Below, one piece after another: positions 39,701 to 42,700 of a stretch of 64,000 nt of DNA; the first letter of the stretch is position 1, and every line of letters starts with the position of its first letter. The notes beneath the pieces are model-generated. The model worked only from the letters and a program-made list of their open reading frames with translations, was not told the DNA's origin and did not search any database. The stretch lies in the NCBI RefSeq assembly GCF_964204645.1, contig NC_134026.1, positions 27,112,650 to 27,176,649 of the forward strand. Reading direction: 5' to 3'. A program made the position numbers and the translations under genes. This stretch comes from Tubulanus polymorphus. Its lineage: Eukaryota; Nemertea; Palaeonemertea; Tubulaniformes; Tubulanidae.

Positions 39701-42700
39701 CATTTACATTATGCTGTTTAATCATTTCATGTCATTCTTCAGTTGGTTTCTATTCTGGCGGATATTCATCAGTCTGAAAATTATATTCTCATTAATTGAA
39801 AAAAGGCTACATTCACATGGCAGCAATTCGGGTGTTCTATTCAGATAGACTCTGCATGTCTTTTCCATTTGGAACCGATTGGCTGCCAATTTTAGTGAAT
39901 TGCTGTTCATGTTGATGTTTGCTAATGCTTTGGCTGCGCTGATGCTTCGTTGCAGATATTGGGTCTATAATGCACGTTACTGAGCTTTCTCCTTTACGAG
40001 GCGCTGTGTCCTGGACTGGCAACGCCGTTACCTACTTCCTGCATATTATAGATCGTACATTGGTGAGTAGGAAACTGGTTGGTATGGTTCTTCGTTGTGA
40101 CCGACATGTTCTACTCAAATTTATCACATTTCATTTATATATGAAAGTCATTTGAAAGTTCGTATAGAAATACAATACATACCGTAAATGATTTGCGATG
40201 AAGGTGATATTACTCGTTGGAGCACAAAGGACCTACTCATGCCCCACAGCCTCATGGGGTTATAGGGATAGTGTCTGCAACCCACTGAAGCGGAATGAAG
40301 ATTCTTATATAGCTAGTTACGTTGAGAAACTTTGCTATTACAAGTGACACAAAGATATACCTCAGTTCGAGAGAATAGAACCTTCATTCTGTTAGTATGG
40401 TACATCTGTACGTGTGGTAGACGATCCATTGTTCACGATTTTTGTTGCGACAGATATTGGTTCGATAATGCACGTCGAGGAATTAAAACCGTTACGTGGT
40501 GCAGTGTCGTGGACTTGCAAAGCGTTCACATATTTTGTGCACTCTATCGATCGCACGTTGGTAAGTATTGATGTCCATAACGAATCGCTATCATCAGTTC
40601 TACTGTTGAACTACACAAGGTGATCTTAATTGGAAGAACTTGAAGAGCCATTATGATGATGATAGTAATCATCATTTACATCACATGTAAATGTTACAAT
40701 TTGAATGGATGTGGTGTATGATAAGATAACCATAATTTCCTCCTATTCGGTTTAGAGGTTTCATAGTCATGAATAAAATGATACTGTTTCATTGTTAGTC
40801 ATGGTAAAAATTTTATAATAACTACATTATTTCCCAAATAGATATTGTAATTATGAATTGATTTTGCTAATTTTACTGCACATACTGATATGCTTCTACT
40901 GTTTTATTTTTTCTAGTTAGAAAATTATTTTCAAAGAATGAAAAATCCAAAACTAAGGGTAAGTGTTAGTTATTTCAGTATATGTATAGATGTCCCTGCT
41001 GTAGTTAGATTTTAATTTCACGTAGTTCTGGAAGATGGCAGTAGAGTGTATTGATTATTAGCAGTAGCCAGCTGCTATGTGAATGGTGGCCATGAAAATT
41101 AACATCCGAGCGACGCAATAACCACTTGTCACATAATACTGATATATTGTAACATGGATTTAAATAGCTTTGATTTATTGTTGCGTTATTTACTGGTGAG
41201 CTGCATCAGTTTATTGTTGAAACTTGACAGAACTAGTAGTTTCATCTTACATGGATAATAGAAAATTGGAGATATCTTTAACAGCTATAGTATCTTCTAA
41301 AATTAAAAAGATATTTCTGTTTCTTTTTCTTCAATTTTTTCTTTGTCATGGTGTATTATAGAATTCCATTGTATTCAGGTGAATTGATGTTTTTTCCAGT
41401 CTGGTGAAACTACAAATGGAGGTCGATCAACACGACGAAATACAGCTCATAATGATCATCCATACCAGGCAGCTAAAGCACTCGATTTCGATAGTTCAAG
41501 TAATGATGCTTCGACTGTAGATTCTGGATTTGGGCCAACAACTAGGCGTCAGTGGAATGAAATCTGCGCGAAACCCGCGTCAGAAAAAGAAAATGACCAG
41601 GTATCTTTTATATCTGGTTAATTTATCGCACCAAACTAAACTTTTTGCAGTTTGTTCCTGTCAATTCAAGCGTATTCGGTGTTTCAGAATGAAAAGCGTA
41701 CAAAAGAACATACCAAGGCTCCGAAACGAAAATCTCGTTCTGCTCGGGATATTAGACGGAATCAGTCCTCGAAGCAACGTAGACGGCAGTACAAATTATC
41801 AGGTAACAGATAGTCGATTTAATGGTCATTATAAATTACCTGGGTTATATAATTTTTATGAAATATGTTGAATTTATGTACCAACATGTATGGCATCATT
41901 TCAGATGAAAATCATTTAGTTGCAAAGAGTCATATGGCAGCTACTAATCAACAAGCAATGGAAAGTCTAGATCTGCTGCATACACATACACTCCTTAGTA
42001 ATACAAACTCAGGGACGAATATGTATAACGACCTCAGTATGGTCAGAGATGATTTAATGCCATCCACAAAACCAGCTTTGCCTCCGCGTAGTGCAGGACC
42101 TGCTAATCTTGATGAGCTTTTTGGTAAGTAAAACCACGATTACCCCTTGGAGGTGATTTTAGAGTTTTAAACCCTAGTGCATTGTATAATGGGCATCTGC
42201 CCCGCAGTCGGATGTATTGTAAGTAACCGGTATCAATTTTTATGATGCCATCTCGCAACAGAGATTTTAACTAAAAAAATTGATAATTACTTCGCGTGGT
42301 GGGCTCAATTTAGGTTGGTGGATACGTGCACTGTAAGTGTTGAAGCGTTACAAGATTGGCTCAATACAATTCTGATTATTGTATTACTCTTATTTTAGCT
42401 TTACTTCGTCAGCAATATGAGGATTATATGAACTACATGGGTTCGGCACAACAAAAAGAGGAACTTTCAAAGAGAGTTGATCAAGCCAAGGTACTTTTTC
42501 AAAGGTCTTCATCTTCAAATAAGGAATGAGTTCTTTTGGACATACGAATAAATGTTATGTTATGTTGAAATTTTAGTTGTATAACCATGAATTGAAACAA
42601 CAGGCAGCAAATCTCGAAACTCAAATATCAAATCTTCAAACAGAAGGAATAGTTAAATTTAAAACTAGACTCAAGGAGGTAAATTCTGAAATGCTTAATA

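Follow-up and report, generated by a model that had tools for sequence, protein, structure and literature searches.

The window analysed here, a 64-kb stretch of DNA that is part of a 268 Mb animal genome, carries a DOT1L gene on its plus strand. Genome-wide, matches to DOT1 were confined to the exons of this one gene, and the search of all 268 Mb returned none elsewhere and no second DOT1L gene. The exons were joined at GT-AG boundaries with the human DOT1L protein as a guide to homology, which gave a spliced frame of 988 codons (36766-45419, plus strand) with either of two copies of exon 10, named 10a and 10b. Residues 1-330 of the product align end to end with residues 5-335 of human DOT1L; the model is provisional at its C-terminal end, and a long open frame at 45440-46732, just 3' of the last modelled exon, probably holds a further C-terminal DOT1L exon. 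The features of the locus are as follows.

36766-39336, plus strand: DOT1L exons 1-9, N-terminal catalytic domain, from the open spliced frame and the human alignment
36766-36840, 37598-37638 and 37774-37854, plus strand: exons 1-3
37951-38014, 38100-38225 and 38590-38680, plus strand: exons 4-6
38779-38873, 38967-39085 and 39188-39336, plus strand: exons 7-9, with the equivalents of R278 and R282 in exon 9
39337-39955, plus strand: intron 9 (619 nt), GT-AG
39601-39628, plus strand: candidate RNA element in intron 9, complement of 40030-40043 in exon 10a
39946-39975, plus strand: exon 10a acceptor, predicted to pair with 40257-40284
39956-40062, plus strand: exon 10a, DOT1L residues 286-321 with the SWTGNAVTY loop, the copy nearer to human
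40063-40453, plus strand: intron between 10a and 10b (391 nt), GT-AG
40257-40284, plus strand: candidate RNA element in the 10a-10b intron, complement of the 10a acceptor (-27.7 kcal/mol)
40454-40560, plus strand: exon 10b, alternative residues 286-321
40561-40916, plus strand: intron 3' of 10b (356 nt), GT-AG
40917-40958, plus strand: exon 11, constitutive, with the equivalents of L322 and F326 (alpha-K)
41400-45419, plus strand: exons 12-19, C-terminal part with coiled-coil and low-complexity sequence

Upstream of DOT1L, the minus strand carries protein kinase exons at 30186-32045 (Pkinase PF00069; AGC-like by inspection), and an exon of an EF-hand protein lies at 54773-55126 (minus strand) between DOT1L and a neighbouring symplekin gene. 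The C-terminal region of the symplekin gene contains an in-frame 30-bp minisatellite of 12 copies (62604-62962) that encodes repeats of a 10-residue type. In the genome at large, we found a match to the bantam microRNA above the Rfam threshold, as well as several long, separate TTAGGG arrays kilobases apart, as opposed to one terminal block (contig C4 at about 25.8, 47.7 and 64.5 kb; contig C7 at about 21.56-21.57 Mb). Together, bantam and the TTAGGG arrays fit a protostome whose telomeres are of the vertebrate type, most likely a spiralian. A search of the assembly for COX1 gave no match, and neither did one for the mollusc haemocyanin and annelid erythrocruorin-linker families, in which the positive controls gave no signal either.

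Exons 10a and 10b are each 107 nt long, have the same phase, and are preceded by AG and followed by GT, so that the coordinates and splice sites confirm a sequence-only reading of this DNA, which had described two 107-nt exons of one phase with intact sites, 391 nt apart. The codon for D286 is begun in exon 9 and completed by either copy, and each copy aligns without gaps to residues 286-321 of human DOT1L. Both donors are strong among the sites of this gene, that of 10b being a consensus donor; few acceptors in the gene score as low as that of 10b. Adjacent, homologous, equal in length and phase, and bounded by intact sites, the two copies have the features of mutually exclusive tandem exons. 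Their resemblance goes well beyond chance: they are the only exon-10-like protein matches in the 268 Mb genome, where a protein-level search found no third copy, and the 1,580-bp region around them occurs once in the assembly. A repeat or transposon origin of this region was rejected, as it is unique in the genome. An assembly or haplotype artefact, in which two alleles of one exon were set in tandem, has nothing in its favour beyond the similarity of the copies; set against their 70% nucleotide identity, their unrelated flanking introns and the single genome match, its probability is close to nil. The sequence shows that a single exon of DOT1L was duplicated in tandem, very probably long ago.

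Among the 36 codons, 11 are identical between the copies, 18 differ by synonymous changes and seven by replacements, in agreement with the 29 of 36 residues that had been counted as common to both. The 32 nucleotide differences fall mainly on third positions (7, 3 and 22 by codon position), and when 32 changes were placed at random in 20,000 trials, the minimum was 12 replacements, compared with the seven observed, and an in-frame stop arose in 56% of trials. A codon model gave an omega (dN/dS) of 0.037 between 10a and 10b and rejected omega = 1 (2dlnL 38.8), a pairwise test that places both copies under coding constraint and is blind to a very recent loss of one of them. At their 5' ends, the two exons show no significant excess of conserved nucleotides (4/7 versus 5/20 identical synonymous codons, p = 0.14). 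Because dN/dS is low and omega = 1 is rejected, both 10a and 10b have been retained as coding exons, which upholds the proposal that selection has kept both copies. The reading of 10b as a relic, an old duplicate that has lost its splicing, can draw on the low-scoring acceptor; however, synonymous divergence between the copies is saturating, and 10b has nevertheless kept an open frame, intact sites, a consensus donor and an excess of synonymous over replacing changes. We consider a relic highly improbable.

The reading frame constrains how the two copies can be combined. Inclusion of both (+214 nt) reads ILVR and then a stop at the fifth codon (40468), whereas omission of both leads to a stop 18 codons later, in exon 12 (41407); the prediction that double inclusion would end within five codons and that double skipping would shift the frame was therefore correct. 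Both stops lie far upstream of many later junctions. Premature stops upstream of later junctions are expected to trigger nonsense-mediated decay, and mRNAs with a wrong exon combination would be removed in this way. Steric interference was rejected as a mechanism of exclusion, the 391-nt spacer being too long, and incompatibility of U2 and U12 sites is unlikely, all sites being GT-AG; given this spacer and these sites, the frame is the sole mechanism of exclusion that can be demonstrated from the sequence. By this reasoning, the pair is to be taken as mutually exclusive in behaviour, enforced at least by the reading frame. In human clusters of mutually exclusive exons, one survey puts the share with lengths not divisible by three at 60% (PMC5740500).

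The same two stops could make the pair mainly an off switch, in which inclusion of both or of neither copy yields an mRNA that is degraded, so that the level of DOT1L is tuned and the two proteins barely differ. A poison exon, however, needs no coding frame, and the purifying selection on the protein encoded by 10b shows that its product matters; the changes in the substrate-binding loop likewise argue for a functional difference. An off switch as the main role is very unlikely. The explanation we favour, and hold with considerable confidence, is that 10a and 10b arose by tandem duplication long ago and have been maintained as mutually exclusive exons, with one copy used per productive mRNA. 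Each productive mRNA would then encode one of two full-length H3K79 methyltransferases; 10a and 10b would both be spliced in vivo, and DOT1L probably exists in this animal in two forms.

Both predicted products are complete in their catalytic domain. Isoforms a and b match the DOT1 domain over its full length (Pfam PF08123; 240.2 and 239.0 bits, respectively), and both contain the SAM-binding DLGSGVGQ motif together with Trp305 and Tyr312. Isoform b matches human DOT1L with E = 5.9e-132, and its 10b segment is aligned without gaps. In human numbering, the replacements from 10a to 10b are T294E, S297K, G307C, N308K, V310F, L314V and I316S. Six of these had been listed correctly before, while the seventh, N308K, had been omitted, although K308 of 10b is the human residue. 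The starting letters T294, N308 and I316 are those of 10a, human DOT1L having V294, K308 and T316. Since 10a matches the human residue at four of the replaced sites (297, 307, 310 and 314) and 10b at one (308), 10b has probably diverged more than 10a.

The segment 301-312 of DOT1L is its substrate-binding loop, which is remodelled upon inhibitor binding (PMC6943651), and Tyr312 forms part of the lysine channel (PMC7764450). These reports and the alignment agree with the earlier view that the changed segment includes a mobile loop and that Trp305 and Tyr312 are kept in 10b; Thr306 is kept as well. The loop holds three of the seven replacements in 12 of the 36 positions, an enrichment that is not significant. 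The isoforms may plausibly differ in how they catalyse the reaction or handle the substrate. The SAM-binding core would be common to both, as would the surfaces that recognise ubiquitin and the acidic patch; the differences would be confined to the substrate-binding loop and to the strand that precedes it. As a special case of the favoured explanation, the DOT1L made with 10b could be weak or inactive and act as a decoy, occupying H2B-ubiquitinated nucleosomes and dampening H3K79 methylation. G307C and V310F, which lie in the loop beside Tyr312, would fit a decoy, as would the unchanged nucleosome and ubiquitin contacts, but the retention of Trp305, Thr306 and Tyr312 and the human residue K308 speak against one, and we regard this case as rather doubtful.

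A further suggestion, that the isoforms differ in their response to ubiquitin or the acidic patch, was not supported. Mutation of R278, R282, L322 and F326 abolishes the stimulation of DOT1L by ubiquitinated H2B (PMC8944089). The equivalents of these residues are conserved and lie outside the alternative segment, R278 and R282 in exon 9 and L322 and F326 in exon 11. Because they are encoded by constitutive exons, an isoform switch in the response to ubiquitinated H2B is unlikely. Other parts of the sequence-only reading were supported: the exon was duplicated in tandem, both copies are under selection, and the frame enforces their mutual exclusion.

Two candidate RNA stems around exon 10a were found post hoc, in one genome. 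The first joins the 10a acceptor to the element at 40257: none of 600 shuffles of the 10a-10b intron gave a stem as strong, and this element is the best plus-strand complement of the acceptor in the 64-kb window, the next best reaching -24.2 kcal/mol. In the second, 40030-40043 in exon 10a is perfectly complementary to 39609-39622 in intron 9 over 14 nt, extended to about 20 bp (-31.4 kcal/mol); none of 15,418 distant plus-strand segments was as strong, and only 1.9% of synonymous recodings were. In predicted folding, the two stems cross and hence compete. The intron-9 stem has a probability near 1 in the full context, while the acceptor stem forms instead when the upstream part of intron 9 is removed, and both stems would hide exon 10a. 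The pairing of the two elements to 10b was no better than that of synonymous recodings (0.29 and 0.38), so a docker/selector scheme with one docking site for both exons was not supported. Long duplexes between whole introns were no better than in shuffles, and the total folding of the region lies only about 1.6 SD below shuffles. These predictions are no more than suggestive of an RNA structure that controls the use of 10a. Two other features were noted near the splice sites: the 10b acceptor is predicted to lie in a local hairpin with the adjacent upstream sequence (40425-40475; pair probabilities reach about 0.8), and a UGCAUG motif (RBFOX-type) at 39853-39858, about 100 nt 5' of 10a, has no second occurrence in the three introns that flank and separate the two exons.

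More speculatively, the choice between 10a and 10b may be set by these two incompatible folds, in which either the acceptor pairs with the downstream intron or the middle of the exon pairs with intron 9, and 10b would be used when 10a is folded away. The two forms, differing in the loop, would then methylate H3K79 at different rates or with different processivity, while H2B ubiquitin would be read identically. We put forward this combined proposal tentatively, as a possibility that we think less likely to be right than wrong.

Mutually exclusive exons swap the ligand-binding region of a chromatin protein in macroH2A1.1/1.2, although that protein is a histone variant reader with another fold, whereas DOT1L is an enzyme. 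Alternative splicing of DOT1L itself is known from the mouse Dot1l forms a-e, but none of these forms is known to arise from a choice between homologous exons for the catalytic loop. In the literature searched, we found no description of mutually exclusive exons in DOT1L or of splice forms of Dot1/grappa. Surveys of human mutually exclusive exons cover 236 events (PMC9741552) and 629 clusters (PMC5740500). The tandem pairs described there resemble 10a and 10b in their equal length and phase, homologous peptides, retained catalytic residues and frame incompatibility, but 10a/10b differs in sitting in the DOT1L catalytic domain; the main text of both surveys mentions neither DOT1L nor any methyltransferase. 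Exons Ab and 3 of U2AF1 are also tandem homologous exons with nearby RNA structures that are proposed to set the choice (PMC5224494); they belong, however, to another gene with other element positions, the structures lying upstream of each acceptor and having been tested experimentally. The docker/selector systems of Dscam, srp and others share long-range complementary stretches around duplicated exons (PMC6071210), but the predicted DOT1L pairing is specific to 10a and a shared docking site is unsupported.

Tandem mutually exclusive exons are well known; what appears to be new is where this pair sits, within the active site of the H3K79 writer. DOT1L is usually viewed as one catalytic entity that is tuned by its partners and by H2B ubiquitin. 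According to one account, no other H3K79 methyltransferase is known (PMC6943651). A lineage in which selection has kept two forms of the substrate-binding loop would offer a natural experiment on rate, on the balance of mono-, di- and trimethylation, or on inhibitor sensitivity, and the pair would show how exon choice within the active site of a writer sets chromatin state.
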